From contig JAOAFV010000020.1 of assembly GCA_026416095.1 (NCBI GenBank), positions 1-54,803 on the forward strand: 54,803 nt of DNA. Reading direction: 5' to 3'. Position numbers and translations under genes: made by a program. Below the pieces are notes generated by a model, which was not told the DNA's origin, made no database searches, and saw nothing but the letters and a program-made list of their open reading frames with translations. The stretch is from Bacteroidales bacterium (GTDB lineage: Bacteria; Bacteroidota; Bacteroidia; Bacteroidales; GWA2-32-17). Within the stretch, counting starts at the first letter, position 1. The number at the start of each line of letters is the position of its first letter. This document shows, piece after piece, positions 21,787 to 45,067 of the stretch.

Positions 21787-22700
21787 TAAAAAAACCTTGT
21801 TGAATAAACATTATATGTTTTAATCAAATCGTATCGCAAGTAAATTTCGTTTGTACTTTTTATGATTTTTTCAAAAGGCAAATTTACAAAATCGTGCGAA
21901 AACCCTAAACACCATTGTTTATTTATCTGATATTCAATCGAAAAAATAGTTGATTCATTTCGTCTGTACGATATTCCAAAAATAAGAGTTTTTAATGCAA
22001 TAATTGAAAATTTAGTTATAACCTTTTTTTCATAATTTCCTGCATAAATACATAAAGATGGATGAATTTGAATATCGTTACCAATATTAATAAGCCCTCC
22101 TGAATATAGTAATTTATTAAGTATACTAAACTTTTCAACCTTATATGAAAAGTCTTCCGTAAACTGATGATTAAAAAAAAAGGGTATAGAAAAGCCCAAG
22201 TAAAAATATTTTGAGTAAAAATACAATCCACCGCCTATGTCAATTTTAGTATACTTAACATTTCCGACAGTAAAAACGTTATCGTTTTTATCAACAAGTT
22301 TTAAATTAGAAATACTAGCAAAATGATGAATAATGCCTGTTTTAATTCCAAATGCTAAATTTTTTCTTCCTTCATTAAAGCGTAAGCGGTAAACATAATT
22401 TATGTTTACTCCGCTTTTTTCACTAATACCAATTTTATCGTTGTACATATTCATTCCTATAGCCATATTTAAGTCTTTTAGTGGAGAATGAATACTTAAC
22501 GATGTTGTCTTTGGTGCTCCTTTTAATCCCTTCCACTGGTCGCGATAAAATAATGTAGCCGATAGTACTTCTCTACTTCCACAATAGGCAGGATTTAATA
22601 AAACACTATTAAAATAGTAATCGCTTAGCATAGGTATATATTGCGAAAAACCAACTATGTAAAAAACAATAAAAGCAATATTTATAAAGAAATTTTTCAT
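21786..22700 (-). CDS. PorP/SprF family outer-membrane protein
   Basis: 304 aa. Signal peptide residues 1-18 (ending GFSQ). Strong PorP/SprF signatures: YYFNSVLLNPAYCGSRE near the mature N-terminus, FYRDQWKGLKGAPKT, LSIHSPL, MNMYNDKIGISE, NINYVYRLRF and later barrel strands. The family accompanies T9SS cargos with type-B C-terminal domains and is needed for their attachment or secretion (as SprF is for SprB). It starts within the stop of the 1630-aa cargo gene (ATGA overlap), a direct sign of that partnership. Confidence 0.93.
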   Translation of the reverse strand: MKNFFINIAFIVFYIVGFSQYIPMLSDYYFNSVLLNPAYCGSREVLSATLFYRDQWKGLKGAPKTTSLSIHSPLKDLNMAIGMNMYNDKIGISEKSGVNINYVYRLRFNEGRKNLAFGIKTGIIHHFASISNLKLVDKNDNVFTVGNVKYTKIDIGGGLYFYSKYFYLGFSIPFFFNHQFTEDFSYKVEKFSILNKLLYSGGLINIGNDIQIHPSLCIYAGNYEKKVITKFSIIALKTLIFGISYRRNESTIFSIEYQINKQWCLGFSHDFVNLPFEKIIKSTNEIYLRYDLIKTYNVYSTRFF

Positions 22701-25700
22701 CTTTTAATCACCACAAATCCCGATTTATATGGTTTGTTGTTCTTTTTTAGTAAATAAAAATAAGTATCTTCTGGTAAATCATTATTATCCATATTTTTAC
22801 CATCCCATTTATTATTGTAATTTTCGGAAGTGTAAACAACATTACCCCAACGATTAAAAATAATTATTTTGTACTTGCTGTTTGGGTCAAGTCCTTTTAT
22901 TTCAAAATAATCATTTGTACCATCATTGTTAGGCGAAAAGCCTTCTGGAATAAATATAGGATAATAGTATATTGTAATACTATCTGACTTTTTTGGACAT
23001 GTACCGTTTTCAACAACCACTTTGATAATATTTTTACCTTCACTAAAGTTAGTTATAACTACCGAATTTCCTGTATCTGGAGTAACAACTGCATCGCCCT
23101 CAATCACACTCCAGTATCCATTTCCAACAGGAATTGGTATGGTGATACTGTAAGTTATGTTTTCATCTAAAAACGTATTATCATATACATCGAGCGAGGG
23201 CTGTTCTGGTTCTTGATAAAAATTAATTACCGATATACAAGTATCAATACAAGGCCCATTTAATATTTGCCAGACTACCTGAAACTGCCCATAATTTTGT
23301 GTTGTAACTTCTGTAATGTTACTGAACGGATTAGAGAAAACAAGCGATGAGCTACCTAACCACTGACCTGTACCATATTGTGGCAAATTCCCCTCAACAA
23401 TAGTTTTTAACCCGCATGTATCTTTATGAATACAATAAGCTTCTTCAAACATATATAATTTAATATTATATTTAGAATTTATAAAGTTTGGCAAACATGG
23501 ACTGTTGTCGTAGATTTTAATAAAACTTATTACATTTATTCCCGTATCAAGAATTAAGGTAACAATAGTATCTTCTGTAAATAACAAAGTGTAATTATTG
23601 CTATTAAAAGAAAATTCTAAATTATATGGAGGATTTCCTATTGGTTTTAACAGAAAAGAAGCATAATTTGAATTATTACTACATAAAACAGTATCGGTTT
23701 GCAAAATTATATTAATACTTGGAGAACTATAGTAATAAATGTTTATTTCGTTGCTTATTCTTTGACAATTTTGCTTATAGATAATTCTTCTTATTTTCAT
23801 GTTTTGTGTAGGAGTTAGAGAATAATGTGGGCTGTGACTATTTGGTAAATCGTACCAGGTATTATTTTCGTAGTATTGCCATATATATGACACATTTTCG
23901 TTTTGTGTAGAAACTACTTCGAATAAGTACACAATAGAATCATTATTGCAAAATAGGGTATCATTAGCACTTATAATATTTTCTGGTAAAGTAATAGGTA
24001 TCAATTTAATAATATTACTTGTATCAACACAGGCTCCTGAATATACAATTCTACCTAAAAATAATGTATCAAACAGTCCTAATACTACATAAACCGAATT
24101 GGTACTAATGCCAGGAGCAATATTCCATGTTAAACTATCATAACTTATTATCCATTGGTAATAATAAGTACCTGTTCCTCCCGCCGGATTTATATTAAAG
24201 CTTCCTAATCCAACAGAAGAACCTTCGCATATATAAACAATAGGTCCACTCCCTTGATTAGTAGTAATCATATTTGCAACTATGGGTTGTAAATTTTCTA
24301 TGGTTACCACATTACTTGTATCTTTACATGCATAATAATTTAATATTCTAATAAAATGGTACTTTACAGGACTTTCTGTTATACTAAAATTATGAATATC
24401 GCTGTAATTCATTAAAGAACTCCAATTTACAGAATCGTTGCTGTATAGCCATTCAAAATAATATGGAGAATATGTATTTTCATAATTACCTTCAATTATG
24501 CCATTTGCTATTCCACAATATTGATAAAACGTACTGCCATTTATCGAAATGTTATTTTCAATGTTTTTAGTTTTGTAAAAAGTAATAACATTCGATGTGT
24601 CAGTGCAACCATTAAAGTTAATTATACATCTTACTTTAAAAGTATCTGGATAATTATCGTATATAAAGTAAAAGGAAGTATAATTATCAACATTTTCCCA
24701 CGTATTATTTATATTAACTTGCCATAAATAAGTACATTGTGAATTCTGATACAAATTAAAAATAGTATCAGGTTCGCTGTAACTACATAATACAGTATCC
24801 TGCTGGTAATATATTTGAGAATGCAAATTAATTATGTTTACATATATAACATTACTTGTATCGTAGCAATATTGACCTTGAAATTGTCCTTTCACTATTC
24901 TCCTTATATAAAAAGAATTCGAAGGGTTCGTAAGAATGTAATTTTGATTATAATTTACACCTGGAGCGTCGGTCCAATTGTTACCATAGTTTATTTGCCA
25001 TTTAAAATTAAATGTTCCCGCTCCTGAAGGAATTGTGCCCGTAAAATAGGCTACCTCGTATGCACATAATACTGAATCGGTTGTATTTATAAAATTATTT
25101 GTAATGTTAATAAGAGGATTTATGTACTCAAAAAGTGTATCTGAACAGTTAATGGAATCGGTTACTATAACATTGAAAAAACCAGGACAAATATTGGAAA
25201 TTTGCGACGAACCACTAGTATAATAGAAAGGTGGTATTCCATTTATTACATTTATTTGAATTGTTCCATTGCATGAATAATCGCATGTTGGTTTTTGAAT
25301 TTGTGCATTTGCTTCAATCGACGATACTATAATGTACAAAACATTACTTGTATCGTAACAAGTTATACCTTGATAATAGCCTATTACAATTCTTCTTATG
25401 TAAAATGAATATTGTGGATTATAATAAACATAATTCTGGCCATTATAAATACCCGGAGCGTTCAACCATTCCTCTCCTATTTTTATCTGCCATAAATAAG
25501 AATAATCATTTACGCCTTGAGGTAAAGAACCACTGAAAGAAATTAACTGTGGCTTACAAAAAACAGTATTATTAACACTTATTATATTATTAGTTATATT
25601 CATCAAACTATTAATAAAAACCGTTGTATCACATACACATCCATTAGCATCCGATACAGACACATAAAATTGACCATCACAAACATTATTTACTACTGAC

Positions 25701-27589
25701 GTCCCTGTTGAATATTGATAAGGAGGTAAACCATTAACTGCATTTATATTAATAGTACCATCACAAGAATAATCGCAAGAAGGAGGTATTATTTGCAAAT
25801 TAACTTGCATTTCATTAGAAGAATGTGTTATTTGAGCAAAACCTGTTGCAGTACATCCATCATTGTTTGTAACTGTCACATAGTAAAAACCTGGACATTT
25901 ATGATTTATTGTTTGTGTAATTTCTCCTGACGACCATTGAAAAGAAACAGGTATGCCATTTTGTATTTCAACGGTAGCAATACCAGTACAACTACTACTA
26001 CAATAATTTGGAATGGAAGTAACTGAAATATCAATTTCAGAAACTTTAATTTTTATAACATTACTTACTTCCGATTCGCCACCTAAATACAACACTTTTC
26101 TTCTAAAAAAAGACGTTTGAGCTAATGGCAAAGCACTATAAAAAGGTTGATTATTAACACCTGGGGCTGGTAGCCAAGTTAAAGAATCGTAACTTATTTC
26201 CCACTGATATTCACATATTAAGTTAGATTGAGTTCCAGTAAATGTTGGAGGTGATTGATTTTTACAAACTACTGTTACATTGGAGCTTATGGTATTAGGT
26301 ACTTTTAAACAACCAAGATTTACAAAGAAGTTTTTAATAATTACACCATTTCCACCGTTGGTACCTGAATATCCTGAACAAGCAGAGCCAGCTACACCAC
26401 CTGCCACAATTACATTGGTATCGTAAGGTGAGTTATAGAAAATAATGCCACCTCCACCACCTCCTCCCGATCCAGTACAAGGAACTGTTGATGCATCTCC
26501 TCCCTTCCCTCCTATAGCGTGTAAATATAGAGGAGAAAGTTCACTTTTTCGCCACAAAATTATGCTACCTCCAGCTCCTCCACCTGCAGCATTATTTGTT
26601 AACGTTCCACTTTCTACTAAACTTACACCATTAGATGTAATAATCTTATAGTTACCATAAATTTTATTTGCTAATAATATAACTATGCCACCACCAGCAC
26701 CCCCTGTTTGTGTTGAATAAAAAGCAGAATAAAAAGAAGATTCTCCACCCGAGCCGCCTAAAAAAATCCTTTTAACTGGATTTGTAGTTATATAATTGCT
26801 TAAAGCAATACCACCTATCCCACCATGATTGCCTACATTTACACAAGCAGACGATTCACGACCACCACTTCCACCCATACCTCCATTCCCACCACCACCG
26901 CCTCCTGAACGCTCTCCATTTCCGCCGCCACCTCCATTAGCAATTTTTCCTTTCCCTCTCGCATAAAAATTACTAAATTTAGCTATGCCTTCTCCTTTTA
27001 ACCCAGCACTATCTGTTGCATTAATAGTATACCAATAGTTCTGTGGATTATTATTAGAACAATATCCATTAACATAACTTGTTTCTTGTATCCCTCTAAA
27101 ACCCTTTCCTGTTACATTTATATTAGCATTAAGGTTAAGAGTATTAGTAATTAAAGAAACAAACACTCCACCTTTATTACCATCCCAAGGTAACGATGTT
27201 AATTCATTATTCACATTAAGGTTTGTAAAAGTTTTAACTTTAACTAACTGTACACTTTCAGTATAAATATTAACCAAAGGGCAAGTAAGATAAATATAAT
27301 TATTTGTTATGCTATTTATTTTGTTAAACTCAAAATAACCTGCGCCACCGATATTGGTAATACTTCCAAAGTTAGAATTATTAAGATTATAAAAAGAAGC
27401 TCCTTTCATTTGTATAATTAAAACAGTATCACCAACGTTAAAAATAGTAGGGTCGCTAACTCTTATTAAAGTGCTCGATAATATTTCTATAACTTTTGAA
27501 GAGGGATTAATAATAACTTGTGAATTCGTTTTGATGAATAATATTAATAAAAATATAAAAATTCTATTTTTACTTAACGCTAAGATCAT
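22697..27589 (-). CDS. Giant T9SS type-B cargo with Gly-rich region and SprB repeats
   Basis: 1630 aa. Signal peptide residues 1-23. Residues about 30-430 form a beta-helix-like region with Gly-rich runs (about 215-245, 295-310, 335-345 and 370-385). Then alternate Ig-like units with the EISYDSLTW-type strand and SprB repeats (CSSSCTGIATVEIQNG, CDYSCDGTININAVNG, CDYSCNGTIQINVING). The C-terminal about 85 residues are a gliding-motility-associated type-B CTD (FIPEGFSPNNDGTNDYFEI, FNRWGNVVYTS, WDGKNMDNNDLPEDTYFYLL). It is probably a surface adhesin attached with the help of the adjacent PorP/SprF protein. Its start lies 20 bases inside the end of the Mpl-like gene; no promoter is needed between them. 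Confidence 0.9.
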   Translation of the reverse strand: MILALSKNRIFIFLLILFIKTNSQVIINPSSKVIEILSSTLIRVSDPTIFNVGDTVLIIQMKGASFYNLNNSNFGSITNIGGAGYFEFNKINSITNNYIYLTCPLVNIYTESVQLVKVKTFTNLNVNNELTSLPWDGNKGGVFVSLITNTLNLNANINVTGKGFRGIQETSYVNGYCSNNNPQNYWYTINATDSAGLKGEGIAKFSNFYARGKGKIANGGGGGNGERSGGGGGGNGGMGGSGGRESSACVNVGNHGGIGGIALSNYITTNPVKRIFLGGSGGESSFYSAFYSTQTGGAGGGIVILLANKIYGNYKIITSNGVSLVESGTLTNNAAGGGAGGSIILWRKSELSPLYLHAIGGKGGDASTVPCTGSGGGGGGGIIFYNSPYDTNVIVAGGVAGSACSGYSGTNGGNGVIIKNFFVNLGCLKVPNTISSNVTVVCKNQSPPTFTGTQSNLICEYQWEISYDSLTWLPAPGVNNQPFYSALPLAQTSFFRRKVLYLGGESEVSNVIKIKVSEIDISVTSIPNYCSSSCTGIATVEIQNGIPVSFQWSSGEITQTINHKCPGFYYVTVTNNDGCTATGFAQITHSSNEMQVNLQIIPPSCDYSCDGTININAVNGLPPYQYSTGTSVVNNVCDGQFYVSVSDANGCVCDTTVFINSLMNITNNIISVNNTVFCKPQLISFSGSLPQGVNDYSYLWQIKIGEEWLNAPGIYNGQNYVYYNPQYSFYIRRIVIGYYQGITCYDTSNVLYIIVSSIEANAQIQKPTCDYSCNGTIQINVINGIPPFYYTSGSSQISNICPGFFNVIVTDSINCSDTLFEYINPLINITNNFINTTDSVLCAYEVAYFTGTIPSGAGTFNFKWQINYGNNWTDAPGVNYNQNYILTNPSNSFYIRRIVKGQFQGQYCYDTSNVIYVNIINLHSQIYYQQDTVLCSYSEPDTIFNLYQNSQCTYLWQVNINNTWENVDNYTSFYFIYDNYPDTFKVRCIINFNGCTDTSNVITFYKTKNIENNISINGSTFYQYCGIANGIIEGNYENTYSPYYFEWLYSNDSVNWSSLMNYSDIHNFSITESPVKYHFIRILNYYACKDTSNVVTIENLQPIVANMITTNQGSGPIVYICEGSSVGLGSFNINPAGGTGTYYYQWIISYDSLTWNIAPGISTNSVYVVLGLFDTLFLGRIVYSGACVDTSNIIKLIPITLPENIISANDTLFCNNDSIVYLFEVVSTQNENVSYIWQYYENNTWYDLPNSHSPHYSLTPTQNMKIRRIIYKQNCQRISNEINIYYYSSPSINIILQTDTVLCSNNSNYASFLLKPIGNPPYNLEFSFNSNNYTLLFTEDTIVTLILDTGINVISFIKIYDNSPCLPNFINSKYNIKLYMFEEAYCIHKDTCGLKTIVEGNLPQYGTGQWLGSSSLVFSNPFSNITEVTTQNYGQFQVVWQILNGPCIDTCISVINFYQEPEQPSLDVYDNTFLDENITYSITIPIPVGNGYWSVIEGDAVVTPDTGNSVVITNFSEGKNIIKVVVENGTCPKKSDSITIYYYPIFIPEGFSPNNDGTNDYFEIKGLDPNSKYKIIIFNRWGNVVYTSENYNNKWDGKNMDNNDLPEDTYFYLLKKNNKPYKSGFVVIKR

Positions 27590-35228: not shown

Positions 35229-37805
35229 TTAATCTTTACGAATATAAAATTTTATAATTCTATCATCTTCTTCTTTCTTTAATTTTAACATGTACAAGCC
35301 ATCAGCAAAAGTAGAAGTATTAATTATAACTTCATTTGTTTCGGGATATAAATACTGAGAATATACGCATCTTCCATCTAAGCTAAAAAGAGAAACTTCT
35401 TTATATTCATTGATTTCTGACAACACGAAAATATAGATATAATCTTTAGCGGGATTAGGAAATACTAATATTTCATTATCTTCATCATCAAAAAGCGTAG
35501 ATTTAGAACAATAACTAACAGCATAAGAAGTTGCACTTCTTGTACATCCATAAGAATCAGTAACAGTTACCTTGTATCCAGTTGTTCTGTAACAAAGATT
35601 AACAGCAGTTTGTGTTGTCTGGTTGTTGGCATTCGAATCCCACAAATAAGAGAAAGGAGGATCGCCACCGGATGGATTTGCAGTAGCAGTGCCTGTGCAC
35701 GAATTCCTCTGGGTACAAGTAGTTGTGGGCTGTGGCAATATAATACTTTTTTTCCCAACATTGCCACTACTCGACCTCGTAACATTACAAGCGTCTGTAA
35801 CAGTACAAGTATAGGTACCCTGAGCTAAATTAGTTATTGTTTGAGTTGTTGCTCCAGTATTCCATAAAAATGTATAAGGCGCTTTACCTCCAACAGGAGT
35901 TGCTGTGGCTGTACCATTCGCAATACAAGCACTCTGAGGTGTTGTTGAAATAGTAACAGAAGTAAAAGCTGGTGGGTTTGTAAGTGTAACAGTAATTACG
36001 TAAGTGGTAAGGCATGCATCTCTTATAGTGCAATAATACGTTCCAGCCCCCAAGTTATTAATTGTTTGAGTGGTTGCGCCAGTACTCCATTTATAAGTAT
36101 AAGGAGTTTTGCCATCATAAGGTAATGCTGTTGCAGAACCATTATATCCTCCACAAGGGTCTACTTTTGAATAAGTCGACTGTAAAGGTGGATTCTCGGT
36201 TAAATTGTGCGAACTTGTAAGTGTGCAACCATACTGATCGGTAACTGTAACATAATAAGTACCCGCGTTTTTATTTGTTATTGTTTGTGTTTGTTCCCCT
36301 GTCGACCATAAGTAAGTATAAGTTCCCGAAGGAGAAGGATTTGCAGTAATACTTCCATCACTACCACCTGGACAAGTAACCTTAGAATCAGTGAAAGAAA
36401 TACTTTCTATTCTACACCCGTAAACCGCATAGTAACCATCGCGATTAGTAAAAGCATTTGTCAATGTTGTTGTTTTAAAAGTTACAGACGAAGAATAGAA
36501 TTCGCCTGTAAAGCAAAAATTCTTTCCTGTTGTTGACACAACAGATTCCCAATTTATATCGCCTTGTGCTCCTTTAACTGCTTCTGCGTTTAATATGCTC
36601 CCATTATTTGAATTTCCTATTATAATCATAGCATCTGTAACACCCTGCAATGTTAAATTATAGGCTCCTAATTGAATATTTCCGCCATATGCCCCTGCAG
36701 CACTAAAGTAATTGCTGTTAGCATTAATACCGTATAAAAAGTCATTTCCATTTGAACCATAATTTTTAACCCATTGTAGAACGCCATTTGAATTATATTT
36801 ACAGATAAAAATATCTGAATAACCACTATTAGAATTAGAGGGTCGTAATAAAGATTGCTGCGAAGCAGTAGAATCTAAAGTTAATTGAGAACAGTAAAAG
36901 TACCCAACACAAAACATATTCCCGTCTTGGTCGGTATTATGTCTATAAAGCCACACCTTATTACTTCCCCCTAATATTCTTCGCCCCCATTGAGCATAAC
37001 CACTTGAATTAAGTTTAATTAAAAAACCATCTTGAATATTTGAAGTAGACAGAGTAATATCGTCAATATTAATATATCCTGTGAAATGACCAGAAATATA
37101 AACATTTCCGTTATTATCAGATGAGATAGAACGACTATAAGTTATATTTGAATTACCTTCTAACATTTTAGCCCATACAACATTTCCTTCTTTTGTTACC
37201 TTAGCTATAAAATTTTGTCGCGACACCCCATTAGTTGAAGAAAATTTTTCTTGACCTCCACATATTTCAACATTATCCATAAATATGCCAGTTATTAGAA
37301 TGTGGTTATTTGCGTCAAAACATATATGGCCACCTGCTTGATTTCCACTACCGCCTGCAACAATAAAAGCATTTTCTAATGAACCTGAAATATTGTAAAT
37401 AGCAATAGCAATATCGTTATTTGTTGCAGTTAAGTAAGTACTTTCAATTTGAGTGGTACCATTAAACGTAATACCTACAGCCAAATATTGTAAATTCGGT
37501 GACAATGAAAGACCATAAACAGCTTCAGTCCCCGTACCTCCTATTTGTTTTATCCACTGCAATACACCTGCAGAATTATATTTAACTATAAAAACATCTT
37601 GAAGCCCACGTGATGTTAGCTGTGTGCCATCGTGATTAATAGTTCCATTGAAATTTCCAGCTACATATATGTTTCCTGCATTATCTCTAACTATAAACTG
37701 AGGTTGATTTTGCCCAGAACCAGTAAAATGCTTTACTACTAATTCACCTTGTGCAAATAAATTATATAAACTAAAAACAAAAATTATATGTATAAAATTT
37801 TTCAT
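35229..37805 (-). CDS. T9SS-exported SBBP/SprB-repeat protein
   Basis: 858 aa. Signal peptide residues 1-18 (ending LFAQ). Residues about 20-465 are SBBP-type propeller repeats (GNIYVAGNFNGTI, DVFIVKYNSAGVLQWIKQIGG, GNVYISGHFTG, DIFICKYNSNGVLQWVKNYG). About 475-770 are four SprB-like repeats (CPGGSDGSITANPSPSG, CGGYNGSATALPYDG, CIANGTATATPVGG, CTGTATANPSGG, each followed by a YLWSTG-type strand). The end is a type A T9SS signal (LVFPNPAKDYIYIF, FADGLYMLKLKK). It is probably a surface or secreted protein. It lies 26 bases after the lasso-cyclase-like gene on the same strand with no visible -7 box between, so read-through is possible. Confidence 0.87.
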   Translation of the reverse strand: MKNFIHIIFVFSLYNLFAQGELVVKHFTGSGQNQPQFIVRDNAGNIYVAGNFNGTINHDGTQLTSRGLQDVFIVKYNSAGVLQWIKQIGGTGTEAVYGLSLSPNLQYLAVGITFNGTTQIESTYLTATNNDIAIAIYNISGSLENAFIVAGGSGNQAGGHICFDANNHILITGIFMDNVEICGGQEKFSSTNGVSRQNFIAKVTKEGNVVWAKMLEGNSNITYSRSISSDNNGNVYISGHFTGYINIDDITLSTSNIQDGFLIKLNSSGYAQWGRRILGGSNKVWLYRHNTDQDGNMFCVGYFYCSQLTLDSTASQQSLLRPSNSNSGYSDIFICKYNSNGVLQWVKNYGSNGNDFLYGINANSNYFSAAGAYGGNIQLGAYNLTLQGVTDAMIIIGNSNNGSILNAEAVKGAQGDINWESVVSTTGKNFCFTGEFYSSSVTFKTTTLTNAFTNRDGYYAVYGCRIESISFTDSKVTCPGGSDGSITANPSPSGTYTYLWSTGEQTQTITNKNAGTYYVTVTDQYGCTLTSSHNLTENPPLQSTYSKVDPCGGYNGSATALPYDGKTPYTYKWSTGATTQTINNLGAGTYYCTIRDACLTTYVITVTLTNPPAFTSVTISTTPQSACIANGTATATPVGGKAPYTFLWNTGATTQTITNLAQGTYTCTVTDACNVTRSSSGNVGKKSIILPQPTTTCTQRNSCTGTATANPSGGDPPFSYLWDSNANNQTTQTAVNLCYRTTGYKVTVTDSYGCTRSATSYAVSYCSKSTLFDDEDNEILVFPNPAKDYIYIFVLSEINEYKEVSLFSLDGRCVYSQYLYPETNEVIINTSTFADGLYMLKLKKEEDDRIIKFYIRKD

Positions 37806-37831: not shown

Positions 37832-39595
37832 CTAAAAAAAATGTTTCATTCTTAAGAAAAAAATTACATTTAAAACCCTCATAAACTTTTCATAATTAGT
37901 AATTTTATTCTCAGAAAAATCTAAAATTAATTGTTTAACATTGAATATTTCAGAAACTGTAGGTGAATTAATTGAATCATTTAATATTTCGTAAATTTCA
38001 GTTTTAAAATTCTCTATTCTTAGATGTAAATCTGCTGCTTGTTTACCTTTTTGTTTATTATTAACTATTTCATCAGCAACAATATTATGAGATATAAGTC
38101 TATAAAATATTTTATGTTCTCCATTCTTCAGATATAATTTTTGAGGTAAAGAAAAACAAAATTCAATGACTCTTGGATCCGATGTTGGATCGTAATTTTC
38201 TATATTGAAATAATTAGTTTTTTCTTCAAGATAAGAATATCCAATTTTTTGAAAAAAATTAAAAAAATACAAACGTGTTTTGTTTAAATTAAAACTTATA
38301 TAGTAGGGATTATAGTTTGTTTCTAAAAAATACTTATCTAACTTATATTTTTTTATAAATTCACTATTAAAATAAGAGTTTAGAAGGTAAGGTTGTTTTA
38401 ATAAATTTAAGGAGATAATTTTTTGCTTGATAAATTTTTTTAATGTTTTTTTTGATAGTACAGCGGAATCGAAAGGCCAACTTATAGTGAGATTACCATT
38501 CTGCGCCCAAATAAGATTATTGATATTCAAACTACACAACTTATTGTATATAGATAAAATCCAATACTGATTCGATGAATTTCGTAAAGGATAGCCATGT
38601 ATTTTTAAAGAGATTTTAATACCTTCAAGAGGATTAATATTTTCGGCATTATCGGTTAAATGAATTATGTTCTTATATTTTCGAGATGTATATTTAGCCA
38701 ATTCGTATTCATTTGTTAATCTATTTGACACAACATCGTTGTTGTATAAAGGAATCGAAGTAATTGCATATAATTGTTTTTTATAAAAAACATTTGCAAT
38801 AAAAGAAGTAATAAAAGAAGAATCTAAACCACTACTAAGGGTTGTCGATATATTTTCGTTCAGGGGCAATTGTTCCTTTAAAACCTCGGTAAGTAAATTA
38901 ATAAAATGCTTTCTGTAAGAATCGTAATCTGAATAATCGATTATTGATAAGTCTTTTACATTCCAATAAATGTTTTTTTTTACAAGGTTTTTATTTAATG
39001 TTATTGCAGTTGCAGGTGAAACTTTGTTAATGTTTTTAAAGCAAGTTTCATCTGGATTACCATAATCACCTACACATAACGAAGCAAGGTAATAAAAATT
39101 AATATTTTCGTCGCTGTTATTTATTTTACTTAATAACACAAAGCTATTTGAAAATATAAAGCCTTCATTTAATTTTATGTAATAAACATTTCTCCAACCT
39201 GTGTGATCTCTTGCTATTTGTATTTCATTCAATTTTAAATTGTATACCAAAATTATCCATTTTCCAATAATATCTTTTAAACCGTTTACTCCTTTATGAT
39301 TGAAATATTTAAAAAAAAGAAAAGTATCGCTAATTACTTCGTTCTGGTGAATATTTAGCCGTCTTTTTAAGTCGTTCTTATTATAAATTTTCGAATAAAT
39401 GAAATATATATTGTTATTATACTCTATAATAAAATCTTTAATATTTAAATTTTTATTAGTATCGATTATTCCAACATTAAAAACCCTATTTAAATTACAC
39501 TTGAAAATTAATCTTTGTGGGTATTCTATGCAAGCGTAATTACTTAACCTGTCAAAGTAATTAGTATTATTTTCAATTGTTATGAAATAAATCAT
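37832..39595 (-). CDS. Asparagine synthetase-like lasso peptide cyclase (C protein)
   Basis: 587 aa. The asparagine synthetase fold lacks the catalytic Cys2 of the glutaminase domain (it starts MIYF), as in lasso cyclases such as McjC. The N-terminal Ntn-like half keeps the ARDHTGWRNVYY pattern (about 128-139). The AMP-forming half has the PP-loop LSSGLDSS (253-260) and downstream DPRVIEFCFSLP, LKNGEHKIFYR and KQKGKQAAD. It would adenylate an Asp/Glu side chain and close the macrolactam on the core's N-terminus. Its 5' end overlaps the B2 gene by 4 bases. Ordinary amidotransferases share the fold, so the role rests on the adjacent B1 and B2 genes. Very A+T-rich. Confidence 0.85.
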   Translation of the reverse strand: MIYFITIENNTNYFDRLSNYACIEYPQRLIFKCNLNRVFNVGIIDTNKNLNIKDFIIEYNNNIYFIYSKIYNKNDLKRRLNIHQNEVISDTFLFFKYFNHKGVNGLKDIIGKWIILVYNLKLNEIQIARDHTGWRNVYYIKLNEGFIFSNSFVLLSKINNSDENINFYYLASLCVGDYGNPDETCFKNINKVSPATAITLNKNLVKKNIYWNVKDLSIIDYSDYDSYRKHFINLLTEVLKEQLPLNENISTTLSSGLDSSFITSFIANVFYKKQLYAITSIPLYNNDVVSNRLTNEYELAKYTSRKYKNIIHLTDNAENINPLEGIKISLKIHGYPLRNSSNQYWILSIYNKLCSLNINNLIWAQNGNLTISWPFDSAVLSKKTLKKFIKQKIISLNLLKQPYLLNSYFNSEFIKKYKLDKYFLETNYNPYYISFNLNKTRLYFFNFFQKIGYSYLEEKTNYFNIENYDPTSDPRVIEFCFSLPQKLYLKNGEHKIFYRLISHNIVADEIVNNKQKGKQAADLHLRIENFKTEIYEILNDSINSPTVSEIFNVKQLILDFSENKITNYEKFMRVLNVIFFLRMKHFF

Positions 39596-40026
39596 ATAAT
39601 GGTTTTAAAATTTTTTACAGGCTTTACAAAATAATAACCATTCGAACTAACAAAGGTATGTAGCTTAATTGTACCTTGTTCATTTTGCCACGATAAATGA
39701 AGTTCGTAAGGTATTTTGTTTATCCTTAATAATATACATGCCAATACCGATTTGCTAAAACATTTTAATTTAATTGGAGTATTTTTTTCGAATATCTTAT
39801 AAACTTTATAAAGTGTAAAAAGCTTATTAATGTCAGTTTTTAAATTCTGAGGATTATATTTTCTTATTTTTGCAAAATATACTTTAATAGGAATAATCTT
39901 CAATAATGGTAAGAGAAATGCTATAATAACAATTTGAAAAAAAATTATTTTTTCCTTAATGGTCAAACTACAAAAACTTATAAATTTACTCATAACATTC
40001 AATAAGGTGTTTACTGTATAATTCAT
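39592..40026 (-). CDS. Lasso-type B2 leader peptidase (transglutaminase-like)
   Basis: 144 aa. C-terminal half matches standalone lasso B2 proteins: the likely catalytic Cys89 in the KCFSKSVLACILL helix, a NKIPYELHL strand, and His123 in KLHTFVSSNGYYF. The third (Asp) residue of the Cys-His-Asp triad is not obvious after His123, and the protein ends soon after, so it is either divergent or slightly truncated. A hydrophobic helix at 28-46 may associate it with the membrane. B2 cleaves the leader from the precursor together with the RRE protein. It overlaps the RRE gene by 41 bases and the cyclase gene by 4. Confidence 0.82.
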   Translation of the reverse strand: MNYTVNTLLNVMSKFISFCSLTIKEKIIFFQIVIIAFLLPLLKIIPIKVYFAKIRKYNPQNLKTDINKLFTLYKVYKIFEKNTPIKLKCFSKSVLACILLRINKIPYELHLSWQNEQGTIKLHTFVSSNGYYFVKPVKNFKTII

Positions 40027-40270
40027 AAATAAAATTGCTTACTTCGTTATAGCAAGTACTATATTCCACATGATATAATTCCATCATCTGCGACACTATA
40101 TCATTAATAGTAACTTTATTTTTAATAAGTTCAAATATTTTCTTTCCAGTTTTATTAAATGAATAAATCTTACCGTCAATATGATTGAAAACTAAAATAT
40201 CATCATCAATGTGCGATATAGATAAATGTTCCTTTAGCTTAAAAGGAGTGTTTTCACAAAATTTCATCAT
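39986..40270 (-). CDS. PqqD-family RiPP recognition element (lasso B1)
   Basis: 94-aa winged-helix RRE. Family pattern: short N-terminal beta hairpin (ISHIDDDILVFNHIDGKIYSFN), helix TGKKIFELIKN, then TINDIVSQMMELY and a C-terminal helix VSNFIYELYSKHLIE. Such proteins bind the leader of a RiPP precursor and present it to B2. It begins 17 bases inside the end of the sulfotransferase gene and overlaps B2 by 41 bases, so the three are translated together. Confidence 0.88.
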   Translation of the reverse strand: MMKFCENTPFKLKEHLSISHIDDDILVFNHIDGKIYSFNKTGKKIFELIKNKVTINDIVSQMMELYHVEYSTCYNEVSNFIYELYSKHLIECYE

Positions 40271-41099
40271 AATTAAAAAGCTTTATTACACTATAATTTT
40301 TTTTCAATATTTTTTTAATTTGGTGCAAAGTTAATACATTTCTAAAATAATATAACTTGCCTACATTGAAAAACATTTTACTGTAAACAGATTTTTCTGA
40401 AAATCCGTATTGTTTTTCTAGTCTTTGAAGATTATTGAAATTGGCAAATTCAATAGCGTCGTTAATTTTATCATTAGAAATATTAAGATTTATAAATTTT
40501 ATAATTTTATTTAATTCTTTATAAGTATTCATAAATAAATCTTCGTACCTTATGATAAGAGTTTTAATTTTTTTTTGAGTTATCCAACTTAAGATATTAT
40601 AAGACCACGAGCTAATTTTCTGAGGTAACTGTATTTGATATTTCATAATGTTTCGTGCAAGTTCATATTTACTATTCGACATTATTTCTATTGTTTCATC
40701 TATTGTTTTACCAATATGATTTGAAAAAGAAATACATAAATCAAAAGGGTTTCTAACTATATAAATTGCCCCATAAGTATGTGTCAATGGCAAAAAGGGT
40801 AAATTATGATATCTTATTCGAAAAGCATCGTGAATTTTTACCGGATAAATTTTAGTGCTTTGTTCGGCTTTTTCTTTAAATACTTCTAATCTTATTTTAT
40901 GTAGTTCACTAATAGTATATTCGCTAATATCATATTCAACAAATTCTTCCAAAATGTACTTTGAGCTATATATAGGTATATTTAATCTATTAATATCGGA
41001 AGTGTTATATAAAATACGCGATAGTAATATTCTAATCCAAGTATTACCAGATTTCGGATAAGATGCAATCCATAGTATTTTTTTATTATTAAATAACAT
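40254..41099 (-). CDS. Sulfotransferase in the RiPP cluster
   Basis: 281 aa. PAPS-dependent sulfotransferase: the 5'-phosphosulfate loop SYPKSGNTW (residues 13-21) and the 3'-phosphate-binding motif IYIVRNPFDLCISFSNH (112-128) with Arg116 and Ser124 in the expected eight-residue spacing; a likely catalytic His lies at 90 (KIHDAF). It is cytosolic and has no signal peptide. It overlaps the kinase-like gene by 11 bases and the RRE gene by 17. The context suggests that it sulfates the peptide or a group added to it; a role on a lipid or sugar cannot be excluded. Confidence 0.88.
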   Translation of the reverse strand: MLFNNKKILWIASYPKSGNTWIRILLSRILYNTSDINRLNIPIYSSKYILEEFVEYDISEYTISELHKIRLEVFKEKAEQSTKIYPVKIHDAFRIRYHNLPFLPLTHTYGAIYIVRNPFDLCISFSNHIGKTIDETIEIMSNSKYELARNIMKYQIQLPQKISSWSYNILSWITQKKIKTLIIRYEDLFMNTYKELNKIIKFINLNISNDKINDAIEFANFNNLQRLEKQYGFSEKSVYSKMFFNVGKLYYFRNVLTLHQIKKILKKNYSVIKLFNYDEIL

Positions 41100-41979
41100 T
41101 ATTATTAATCAAGTTTTTTAATTTTTTTAAAAAAACTTCTTGACTTACATTGACTGGCCTATAAACTTTATATGTAATTATTTTGTTGGCAATTTCAGTT
41201 ACAATGTTAAACTCCAAATTAGAATGTAATTTACCTAAAATGGCTGGTTTATATATATTATTGTAAATAGAAATAAATTTATCCTTACCATTTATTTCTT
41301 CAAATTTAATTTTATCATTGTAAGAAACTTCAATAATTAAAATTAATTCTAACTTATTTAATGAATATAAAAATTTTTCACTAACATTTAAATAATACTT
41401 TTTTAAGTCTTTAACAACAGGAATAACATTCTCTTTATTTGTTTTAATATCTGCTTCCCACAATTTTAAAAAAGGAAAAGAACTATAAAAATAAGTAGGA
41501 TAATCAACAAAAACAGGTACTATGTCGTCGCAATAAAATATTATATTTTCATCGCATAAAAAGTTATAAACAATTGTCGATTTGCCACTACCTACTTTAC
41601 CTGCACATAAAATATTTTTATTATTATAATTAAAAGCACTTGCGTGCAATAAAATAAAATTATAATAATAACCTAATAATTTAAAAAGTAGCCCTGTTAT
41701 AAACAGATAAAAAATGTGTTTATCATTATAATTATAATAAAGTATTTTTTCATCATGAAGATATAAAAACTCACATTTGGTATTCCAATAATAAAAACAT
41801 TTATTAGCTATAAATAAATTTTTACGTTTTAATAATACTTCAACATTATTTGGAATAATATTTTTTATTTTTTTTTGATAGACAAATTTTATTACCGTAT
41901 TTCCTTTTTCAAGACAAGAAAAATAAGGTAATTCCGTATTACACTCAAAATTTAAGCCACAAGCCGAATATTTTTTCAA
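41089..41979 (-). CDS. HPr kinase-like peptide kinase (PadeK/ThcoK type)
   Basis: 296 aa. The start is TTG at 41979: an in-frame stop lies two codons upstream, and no ATG precedes the first domain (KKYSACGLNFECN). The C-terminal part is an HPr kinase/phosphorylase-like domain: LLHASAF (His112), Walker A AGKVGSGKST (126-135), FYCDDIVP (Asp151, Asp152) and a LWEADIKTNKEN segment. Homologues beside lasso genes (paeninodin-type clusters) phosphorylate the precursor's C-terminal Ser. True HPrK has a different N-terminal domain. It is the first gene of a five-gene overlapping operon and follows a -7 box. Confidence 0.85.
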   Translation of the reverse strand: MKKYSACGLNFECNTELPYFSCLEKGNTVIKFVYQKKIKNIIPNNVEVLLKRKNLFIANKCFYYWNTKCEFLYLHDEKILYYNYNDKHIFYLFITGLLFKLLGYYYNFILLHASAFNYNNKNILCAGKVGSGKSTIVYNFLCDENIIFYCDDIVPVFVDYPTYFYSSFPFLKLWEADIKTNKENVIPVVKDLKKYYLNVSEKFLYSLNKLELILIIEVSYNDKIKFEEINGKDKFISIYNNIYKPAILGKLHSNLEFNIVTEIANKIITYKVYRPVNVSQEVFLKKLKNLINNNVI

Positions 41980-41988
41980 TTTTTTCTA

Positions 41989-41996
41989 CAAATTTA
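41989..41996 (-). promoter_or_regulatory. Candidate -7 box (TAAATTTG) of the RiPP operon
   Basis: Exact TAnnTTTG on the minus strand, 9 bases before the TTG start of the kinase gene; no -33 match at the usual distance. The rest of 41980-42151 holds no ORF longer than about ten codons on either strand, hence no precursor gene there. Confidence 0.5.
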
Positions 41997-42151
41997 ACTT
42001 AAATTAAAAACTTGTTAATTAAATACCATTAAAATTTAACTTCAAAATTAATTTTAAGAGCGTTTTTTATTTCATGTATTTATTTTTTCACTAACTTAAT
42101 AAACAACCCCTCTTATTCTTTAAAACTTTAATTAATATTTCTCTATAGTAT

Positions 42152-43654: not shown

Positions 43655-45067
43655 TTATTTTCTTCGTCTCTCAATAGAAGAATTATCACCACTACTTCTA
43701 TTATTATCTGAAGGTTGAGAAAAAATTAAATTCGAAGGTCTATTATTAAAGTTATTTGAAGGCTGCGGCTGTTCTATAGTTCTATTATAGTTATTATGAG
43801 ACGGTTTACGATACTCAATTTCGTTATCATTAATTCTTAATGGTCTATTAGTATAATTTTCGCGAATAATGGGTTTATCGTAATAATTAGGTCTATCAGG
43901 CTCGTTTATAATTGGCCCCCTTTGATAATTGTTAGGATTATAAGTTGGTGGATTAAAAAATGGTCTATCTTGGCTAATTGTTGGTTTATTCTGACCAAAA
44001 CTTGGTTTCTCATTGTTGGTTGTAGGTTTATTTTGATTTACAACAGTAATATTATTAGGTTTATCTTGAGAAACTCCAGTTTGACTAACTCCGCCTACAA
44101 TAGGATTTCTTTCATATGGCTTATCGCTATTATTTACATTAAACAGAGGCTGCCGCTGAGTAGAAGAATTTACTTCTTTAGAATTTACATCAGAGTTGCC
44201 AGCTATAGATTGTGGTTTGGGCTTAATAGAATTGTCTAATATCACTGGCAGATTGTTTTTCAAGGGTTTATCTACGCTCTGAGAATTGACATTAATAGTT
44301 GGTTTATTTACCACTTCGTTATGATAAGTATTAACAAATGAATAATAATTACCACCACTTTCTCTATGTGAACCACTTGTAGGAATATCGCTAAGAGGAC
44401 CATAGTGGGTTCCGTCGAAAGAATTATAATAATAATTATATGCTAAAGCATCGTAATAACCATTCCAGTACCCATGCCAATAACCATGAAAATATCCATG
44501 CCAGTAGCTATAAAAAGGGCTATGCCATGCACATGGCCAGAAAAATGGATCATAATAATAATAGTAATAAGGATGCCAGTAATAATAATACCAAGGATAA
44601 TAAAAGCCTACATAAAATAAAGCAGGATAATAATAATATGCATAATAAGGCCACCAACGATATCCAAAATATATGCTTATACCCCAATCCCACGGATCGT
44701 AGGTATACCAATATAAATTAGTATAAAACCCATCGAAATATCCAAAACCCAAATATGGGCCATGGAATCTACGTATTCTTGCGGCATACGAAAAATCATA
44801 ATAATCATCTGGATCAAAATTATAATAATTATTAGTCACATAAGTATCGCCATTATTACTACTCTCTATTGTTTGTTCATATTTTTTAGAAGTTTGAGTA
44901 TTCTGAGGAATATTATTAGCTTCAGAGTTATAATAACTTGAAAAATTACTATTTTCATCTTGCTTTATTGTTGAACTATAAATATCATCGTTTATTGTTG
45001 TTTTAGTTATGCTACAGCTAAAAAGAATTGCTAAAAGACCACTTAATATTATTATTTTAGTTTTCAT
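43655..45067 (-). CDS. Aromatic-rich (Tyr/Trp) lipoprotein
   Basis: 470 aa. Lipobox LAILFSC with Cys18. After a polar segment, residues about 85-220 are extraordinarily rich in Tyr, Trp, Phe, His and Gly (for example YYYYWHPYYYYYYDPFFWP, WHGYFHGYWHGYWNGYYD). From about 270 to the end the protein is Asn/Pro/Gln/Ser-rich low complexity with repeated NKPT/NRP-like units and a final ERRRK. Similar aromatic-rich proteins occur next to proS in other Bacteroidota. Probably a surface-exposed structural or adhesive lipoprotein; no enzyme motif. It has an unusually good Shine-Dalgarno sequence. Confidence 0.8.
   Translation of the reverse strand: MKTKIIILSGLLAILFSCSITKTTINDDIYSSTIKQDENSNFSSYYNSEANNIPQNTQTSKKYEQTIESSNNGDTYVTNNYYNFDPDDYYDFSYAARIRRFHGPYLGFGYFDGFYTNLYWYTYDPWDWGISIYFGYRWWPYYAYYYYPALFYVGFYYPWYYYYWHPYYYYYYDPFFWPCAWHSPFYSYWHGYFHGYWHGYWNGYYDALAYNYYYNSFDGTHYGPLSDIPTSGSHRESGGNYYSFVNTYHNEVVNKPTINVNSQSVDKPLKNNLPVILDNSIKPKPQSIAGNSDVNSKEVNSSTQRQPLFNVNNSDKPYERNPIVGGVSQTGVSQDKPNNITVVNQNKPTTNNEKPSFGQNKPTISQDRPFFNPPTYNPNNYQRGPIINEPDRPNYYDKPIIRENYTNRPLRINDNEIEYRKPSHNNYNRTIEQPQPSNNFNNRPSNLIFSQPSDNNRSSGDNSSIERRRK

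Follow-up and report, generated by a model that had tools for sequence, protein, structure and literature searches.

A divergent, probable lasso peptide maturation operon of a Bacteroidales bacterium and its likely precursor, encoded elsewhere beside a type IX secretion surface protein

The window analysed here is a stretch of 54,803 nucleotides from a Bacteroidales bacterium (assembly GCA_026416095.1, contig JAOAFV010000020.1, positions 1 to 54,803). Five overlapping genes on its minus strand, at 37832–41979, encode an HprK-like kinase, a sulfotransferase of the type using 3'-phosphoadenosine 5'-phosphosulfate (PAPS), a PqqD-type RiPP recognition element (RRE; RiPPs are ribosomally synthesised and post-translationally modified peptides), a B2-type leader peptidase and an AsnB-like cyclase. 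Judging from the genes alone, this operon very probably makes a lasso peptide with a phosphate and perhaps a sulfate. We consider it likely that the window encodes the maturation part of a split, paeninodin-like lasso system, whose precursor is encoded on another contig and is linked to a surface protein with an SBBP beta-propeller and a tail of the type IX secretion system (T9SS). The preliminary description of the window had seen a compact lasso-type operon. The cluster is not self-contained, as both a precursor and an exporter are missing from it, and a sixth gene, encoding an SBBP/SprB/T9SS protein, had been overlooked.

In six genomes, a short open reading frame (ORF) located beside or near the cyclase gene encodes a W-x-x-P motif, a Thr and an Asp in a Gly-rich tail (loci L052–L056 and L058). 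Model A1 was built from these six precursors, chosen by eye, and is biased toward W, P, T and D. Applied to 15 genomes, it yielded a precursor in the window's own genome (G000) on a different contig, at G000:C49:10213-10323, with E 0.007; the model predates the discovery of this ORF. The precursor sequence is MEKEKWETPQIEEISIKSAEEGGSTNADGSFAPSLS. Its stop codon lies 7 bases ahead of the start codon of an SBBP/T9SS gene, whose product (1776 amino acids, aa) has a T9SS tail of type B; a PorP/SprF gene follows. Altogether seven places outside the seed set have a readable precursor ORF (G002:C13, G004:C158, G007:C121, G005:C274, G000:C49, G006:C106 and G042:C174), and all seven adjoin a gene with an SBBP domain, in G042 on the opposite strand. 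Three more rows of the scan, with E 0.55–0.83, were situated within frames of 301–534 codons and were discarded as chance matches. At the level of the genus, the precursor/SBBP pair is present elsewhere in the genome in three of the four members (G000, G002, G003).

The precursor of the window's genome ends in Ser. Its Asp, 22 residues past the leader Trp, would be core position 7, 8 or 9 according to the register chosen. Lasso leaders elsewhere carry Tyr at the place of this Trp, and Thr at position −2 is common in them, with exceptions. If the core is set by this Thr, the ring acid in the window's family is mostly Asp8, and the first residue is Ser, Asn, Asp, Glu, Leu or Gly; if the start is shifted by one residue toward the C-terminus, Gly is mostly the first residue and the acid is Asp7. 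Asn at core position 1 has a precedent in metanodin (PMC12670498). Of 14 precursors, two match the paeninodin family model NF033524 with E-values up to 1 (the best at 0.0011), and the one from the window's genome does not. Thus the system would work like the paeninodin type but is not filed in that family, since its own precursor is unmatched.

A second model, A3, of 14 rows, was applied to 393 genomes of the order (threshold E 0.01); a sample of 395 genomes of the phylum was also scanned (E 0.001). In the order, 35 precursor places were found in 30 genomes. An SBBP gene is present in the stretch read at 24 of the 35 places, at 23 of them within 1 kb, and in 22 of the 24 pairs the open frames are at most 115 bases apart. 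At least one maturation gene (cyclase, B2, RRE, kinase or sulfotransferase) is near 27 of the 35 precursors, and every one of the 35 has either an SBBP or a maturation gene. Core statistics were calculated for 33 rows, G360:C8 and G155:C6 being left out because of a wrong frame. Position −2, accepted at 12–14 residues past the Trp, is Thr in 29 rows and Ser in three. An Asp or Glu at core position 8 or 9 is seen in 29 of the 33 (mean of shuffled sequences 8.7, none of 20000 shuffles as high) and at positions 7–9 in 30, while the C-terminal residue is Ser in 26 (shuffled mean 4.9). As the seed set is biased, the 22 rows outside it provide the fair test: 18 have the acid, 18 have the C-terminal Ser, 13 have Gly at core position 1 and 12 have the SBBP gene. 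In the phylum sample the precursor type is present in four of the 395 genomes, three of them from the same order, and of these only the window's genome has an SBBP gene beside it; hence the linkage is, as far as sampled, a Bacteroidales matter.

The SBBP protein of the window itself is encoded on the minus strand at 35229–37805, 26 bases behind the cyclase gene, so that the operon extends past its five enzymes. It is 858 aa long and consists of a signal peptide, an SBBP beta-propeller (3e-8), SprB repeats (3e-18) and a T9SS sorting domain (Por_Secre_tail, 7e-13) of type A, as distinct from the type B tail of the C49 protein with its PorP/SprF gene. PorP/SprF is the proposed anchor for such T9SS cargo (PMC9143113). 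Residues 1–458 were modelled with AlphaFold2 at a predicted local distance difference test score (pLDDT) of 91.3, and the best fold match is CylK (template modelling (TM) score 0.73, 22% identity); this likeness indicates the fold, not the function. Each of the four genomes read from the genus (G000–G003) has an SBBP gene directly behind the cyclase. At lower coordinates, an ORF of 1630 aa at 22697–27589 has a part (25487–26029) related to the SprB-repeat region of this protein.

Only three SBBP-propeller regions are present in the own genome (2.46 Mb) at E 1e-10. The third, G000:C54:27900-30710 (L095), belongs to an SBBP/T9SS protein with no precursor, and its counterparts in three genus mates (L113, L114, L122) are near a gene that by eye resembles peptide deformylase. 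In a midpoint-rooted tree of 48 SBBP domains, precursor-linked members are found on both sides of the root fork, which is weakly supported (46), and the linkage label changes nine times, compared with 15.1 in shuffles. The window and C54-type propellers form a well supported group of unlinked proteins within a branch that holds linked ones. The simplest reading of the tree would be a duplication, with the precursor retained beside another copy. The SBBP gene of the window, a paralogue, accompanies the maturation genes without a precursor of its own.

The five maturation genes overlap successively by 11, 17, 41 and 4 bases, as initially described, and their coordinates, strand and the residues first named in them were confirmed. 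The third of these values refers to the longest ORF of the B2 gene; the start is probably at 39993 rather than at 40026, as the proteins of several relatives have their first residue opposite Met12 in the alignment, and the overlap then is 8 bases. A comparison of gene order in relatives, proposed in the preliminary description, gave the same five genes in the same order in all four genomes of the genus, that is, in the window and in G001–G003. Another genus of the family, g2, is different: in four of its five genomes (G004, G006–G008) the kinase–sulfotransferase–RRE–B2 group and the cyclase are on separate contigs, and in the fifth, G009, all are together on one contig of 5.5 kb. The GC content across 38001–42000, 0.225–0.241, is the minimum of the window (0.243–0.374 in the rest).

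The RRE (39986–40270, minus strand, 94 aa) matches PqqD at 3e-12, and its best NCBIfam model is lasso_PqqD_Bac (5e-15, below the cut-off). The B2 peptidase (39592–40026, minus strand, 144 aa in the longest ORF) is a transglutaminase-like protein with a Transglut_core3 match at the cut-off (9.5e-6). Its score with lasso_biosyn_B2 is 0.0016, below the cut-off, but the same model matches all 12 aligned members (best 6.5e-28), in which Cys89 and His123, noted at the outset, are invariant. A sequence search of solved structures gave no meaningful match for B2.

The cyclase (37832–39595, minus strand, 587 aa) has the Pfam domains Asn_synthase (3e-9) and GATase_7. As had been noticed from the sequence, it has no glutaminase Cys: residue 2 is Ile, and a Cys is seen there in none of 11 aligned rows, while the PP-loop, starting at residue 253, retains S-x-G-x-D-S in all of them. 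Among the NCBIfam models, the lasso cyclase lass_lactam_cya (5e-32) is ahead of asparagine synthase (8.5e-28) and of the XrtA/exopolysaccharide (EPS) amidotransferase (5e-16), although the score of the window protein is far below the lass_lactam_cya cut-off of 525 bits. The lasso model matches all 11 aligned cyclases including this one, at best with 1.6e-106; the EPS model also matches all 11, at best with 1.3e-41. An EPS or aminosugar amidotransferase was rejected as the identity of the cyclase by its lower model scores. Three other AsnB-like matches in the genome were also rejected as real lasso cyclases, being 24–30% identical and having only marginal kinase or sulfotransferase matches nearby (E 3.8e-4 to 0.005). 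A scan of viral contigs yielded no relative of the cyclase.

Since the window copies score weakly themselves, while the lasso models match all aligned relatives, they are divergent members, and the maturation operon as a whole is, by sequence comparison, a divergent representative of the known lasso kind. An EPS-like cyclase together with an unmatched B2 had been named as the outcome that would speak against this assignment. The outcome was different: the lasso cyclase model scores best, the B2 model matches 12 of 12 members, though the window copy weakly, and a matching precursor exists in the genome.

The kinase (41089–41979, minus strand, 296 aa, TTG start) has a Walker A motif at G127–T135. 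His112, Lys133 within the Walker A motif, Asp151 and Asp152 are invariant in 11 of 11 aligned rows. Its best NCBIfam model, TIGR04352, matches at 2e-4, far below the cut-off. The AlphaFold2 model has pLDDT 91.1, and the best Foldseek match is HPr kinase/phosphatase (E 2e-6, TM score normalised by query length about 0.35), followed by phosphoenolpyruvate carboxykinases with similar E-values; at the sequence level, the family profile matches HPr kinases (6e-6). A His-Lys-Asp-Asp motif of the kinase and a C-terminal Ser as its target are described for phosphorylated lasso peptides (PMC9266682). By analogy, phosphorylation of the precursor is well supported by the presence of this motif and of the C-terminal Ser.

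The sulfotransferase (40254–41099, minus strand, 281 aa; Sulfotransfer_1, 1e-19) has the PAPS-binding loop SYPKSGNTW at S13–W21, conserved in 11 rows, in which Ile22 and other residues vary, and a 3'-loop from residue 112. K88, H90 and D91, forming a K-x-H-D motif, are invariant in the same number of rows. The profile matches solved sulfotransferases, such as Teg12, StaL and SULT1, and there are zero NCBIfam matches at E up to 1. An adenosine 5'-phosphosulfate (APS) kinase is encoded in the same genome, on G000:C22, which provides for the supply of PAPS. With these motifs and this kinase, sulfation of the peptide is possible. The core of the own precursor has no Tyr, and Tyr as a fixed site of the putative sulfation was therefore rejected. 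Hence, of the two modifications suggested initially, phosphorylation stands by inference, whereas sulfation is only a possibility. Both tailoring enzymes are indeed there, but such genes have already been mentioned in lasso clusters (PMC4289311, PMC8498205).

The following scheme may be suggested. The RRE would bind the W-x-x-P leader of the precursor encoded on C49, as its homologues do. The kinase would then phosphorylate the C-terminal Ser, and the sulfotransferase might sulfate the same peptide, a step that has no precedent. B2 would cut off the leader, and the cyclase would link the new N-terminus to the Asp, forming a ring of 9, 8 or 7 residues if the core starts at the first Glu, at the second Glu or at the Gly behind them. 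Leader binding, phosphorylation of Ser in the linear precursor, leader removal and macrolactam closure are all known for characterised homologues (reviewed in PMC9266682 and PMC8498205). Finally, the peptide may work with the SBBP/T9SS surface protein, as a bound ligand or as displayed cargo; this step would also be unprecedented, and it is the linkage of the genes that points to it.

A broader version of the last step is offered as a tentative one, with less than even confidence. The Bacteroidales might have a class of surface-bound lasso peptides, in which a phosphorylated and perhaps also sulfated peptide is a dedicated partner of a T9SS beta-propeller/SprB adhesin, with one precursor per adhesin and with shared enzymes acting in trans. 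Instead of acting as a free antibiotic, the peptide would then be a ligand or a plug of the propeller or form its displayed tip, and the SBBP/T9SS protein would take the place that an exporter of the ATP-binding cassette (ABC) type has in other lasso clusters. Should the pairing be functional, it could account for the fact that such clusters can lack an exporter gene, and it would suggest a role in adhesion or surface recognition that can be tested. To our knowledge, it would be the first case of a RiPP connected with the type IX secretion surface.

In favour of the split system, six-frame hidden Markov model and regular expression scans of the window found no precursor in or near the operon. 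Several other observations weigh against the system as described. The operon contains no exporter gene, and the SBBP genes behind the cyclase in the window and in the three other genomes of the genus have no adjacent precursor. In G001, the whole genome gave no precursor match. The precursor of the window's genome has no Thr at −2 (the residue is Ala in the register of the relatives and Ser in another one), and Glu would be the first core residue under the standard rule; the lack of a core Tyr has been mentioned. The kinase, RRE, B2 and cyclase of the window are all below the curated NCBIfam cut-offs. In the order survey, the stretch read lacks an SBBP gene at 11 of the 35 precursor places (G165:C544 is counted here, although a partial SBBP match was seen at its contig end in an earlier scan). 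Finally, for 19 of the 48 SBBP domains there is no precursor at a distance of up to 1 kb, and the other 29 are not an unbiased rate, as the loci were partly picked by the precursor and copies of one locus were merged.

The last of these observations also favours an ordinary secreted lasso peptide, the alternative that bears on the final step of the scheme only and to which we would give a substantial, though minor, chance. The SBBP gene would then be a mere neighbour, an exporter would be encoded elsewhere, and the product would be an antimicrobial or a signal. Published lasso peptides have mostly been studied as free, exported molecules. Moreover, an exporter-sized ABC gene, called by motif rather than by a family model and in flanks of differing length, is present at six of the 11 precursor places lacking SBBP, as opposed to one of the 24 places that have it (Fisher p 0.0017). 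The tight pairing at the 24 places, nearly all within 115 bases, does not look like mere neighbourhood. The reverse count agrees with this: a precursor is within 1 kb of the gene at 13 of 32 SBBP places (two more, in G016, are about 5 kb from the domain, and 17 have none known on the contig), at a density of only about 0.6 SBBP places per Mb (32 in 53 Mb). At eight precursor places, two of them on contigs of 5–7 kb, SBBP alone is present, with no maturation gene in the stretch read; hence closeness of both genes to a maturation cluster cannot account for these eight pairs.

Decay of the cluster, with its precursor lost and the enzymes on the way out, would be consistent with the weak model scores, with the lowest GC content of the window and with the absence of a precursor from the operon. 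We regard it as improbable, as all five frames are open, the motif residues are retained, the gene order is kept in four of four genomes of the genus, and a precursor/SBBP pair is present elsewhere in G000, G002 and G003. Still less credible is the assumption that the system is not lasso at all, the AsnB-like and B2-like proteins serving a polysaccharide or an amidated sugar and the kinase and sulfotransferase acting on a glycan: the sub-threshold scores, the EPS model matching 11 of 11 cyclases and the glycosyltransferase-like genes seen by eye near two SBBP loci (L095, L111) are outweighed by the lasso model being the best for the window cyclase, by the ORFs with the leader motif, ring acid and terminal Ser near maturation genes in 27 of 35 cases, and by the lack of a glycosyltransferase among the five genes.

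Among the known systems, the split system of the window is close to the paeninodin type (PadeK, ThcoK, SyanK), with which it shares the cyclase, the RRE, B2, the HprK-like kinase and a precursor ending in Ser. It differs in having the precursor outside the cluster, the Trp in the leader, no exporter, an added sulfotransferase and the T9SS propeller partner. Pseudomycoidin, with a kinase and a nucleotidyltransferase, PsmN, which we take to belong to the Pfam family NTP_transf_5, is resembled by five Bacteroidales loci having an NTP_transf_5 gene near the cyclase. Unlike them, the window operon has no such gene; its genome has a single NTP_transf_5 match, on contig C42, where the 20 kb read include no lasso gene. 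With the SprB and T9SS adhesins that have PorP/SprF anchors, the SBBP proteins share SprB repeats, tails of type A or B and, on C49, the PorP/SprF gene; they add an N-terminal SBBP propeller and, in the pairs, a RiPP precursor upstream.

HPr kinase and sulfotransferase genes have been reported beside lasso genes in Gram-positive anaerobes and Firmicutes (PMC4289311; PMC8498205, citing Zhu 2016), and these clusters share both extra enzymes with the window. In the passages concerned, the mention is brief and the role is given as unknown, whereas here the kinase–sulfotransferase order is fixed across many phyla and, in the Bacteroidales, occurs with SBBP/T9SS proteins. No description of the joint chemistry of the two enzymes was found in the open-licence literature searched. 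In the same literature, no paper combines lasso peptides with type IX secretion, and nothing relevant to SBBP, beta-propellers and lasso peptides was among the matches listed. In the searched text of a survey of Bacteroidales RiPPs (PMC10352776), the word lasso appears only in the title of a reference and in a glossary entry, and neither T9SS nor SprB is present. The pairing of a precursor with a T9SS propeller appeared in none of the papers searched. The new element is the splitting of the system together with its T9SS propeller partner. It also has a practical side, as genome mining expects the precursor inside the cluster, and such systems may be called precursor-less or be missed.

The analysis also highlights the kinase–sulfotransferase pair, whose order is fixed in many phyla. 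The sulfotransferase alignment was used to scan named genomes; at least 582 loci were obtained, of which the best 80 were evaluated. In the stretch covered, 67 of these 80 have a cyclase, B2 or RRE gene and 40 have the complete trio; the kinase is immediately ahead of the sulfotransferase in 65 of the 67. By record title, these 67 loci include the Bacteroidales, other Bacteroidetes, Chloroflexi, Acidobacteria, Opitutaceae, Limisphaerales, Actinomycetes and several proteobacterial groups. SBBP is present in seven of the best 80, all of them Bacteroidales by title (L157, L168, L172, L179, L183, L198, L215). In the six that were read fully, the kinase, sulfotransferase, RRE, B2, precursor and SBBP genes follow one another in the same direction, with one extra ORF between them in L198, and the cyclase is on the opposite strand. 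The NTP_transf_5 gene is next to the cyclase in L168 (5946–7106), L172 (5976–7139), L198 (5953–7113) and L183 (5614–6765) and one gene away in L179 (5087–6181), all five scanned being confirmed; in these loci, the same peptide might carry an additional group besides phosphate and sulfate.

In the rest of the window, a gene with no Pfam match at E 0.01, at 43655–45067, encodes a protein of 470 aa whose middle part is rich in Tyr, Trp and His. Among the loci of the sulfotransferase scan, the alphaproteobacterial L227 and L232, with no lasso gene in the stretch, have at least three related sulfotransferase genes in tandem. Two kinase–sulfotransferase lasso loci feature similar precursor-like ORFs in tandem, four in L189:13638-14922 (Chloroflexi) and three in L209:11099-11738 (Saprospiraceae).

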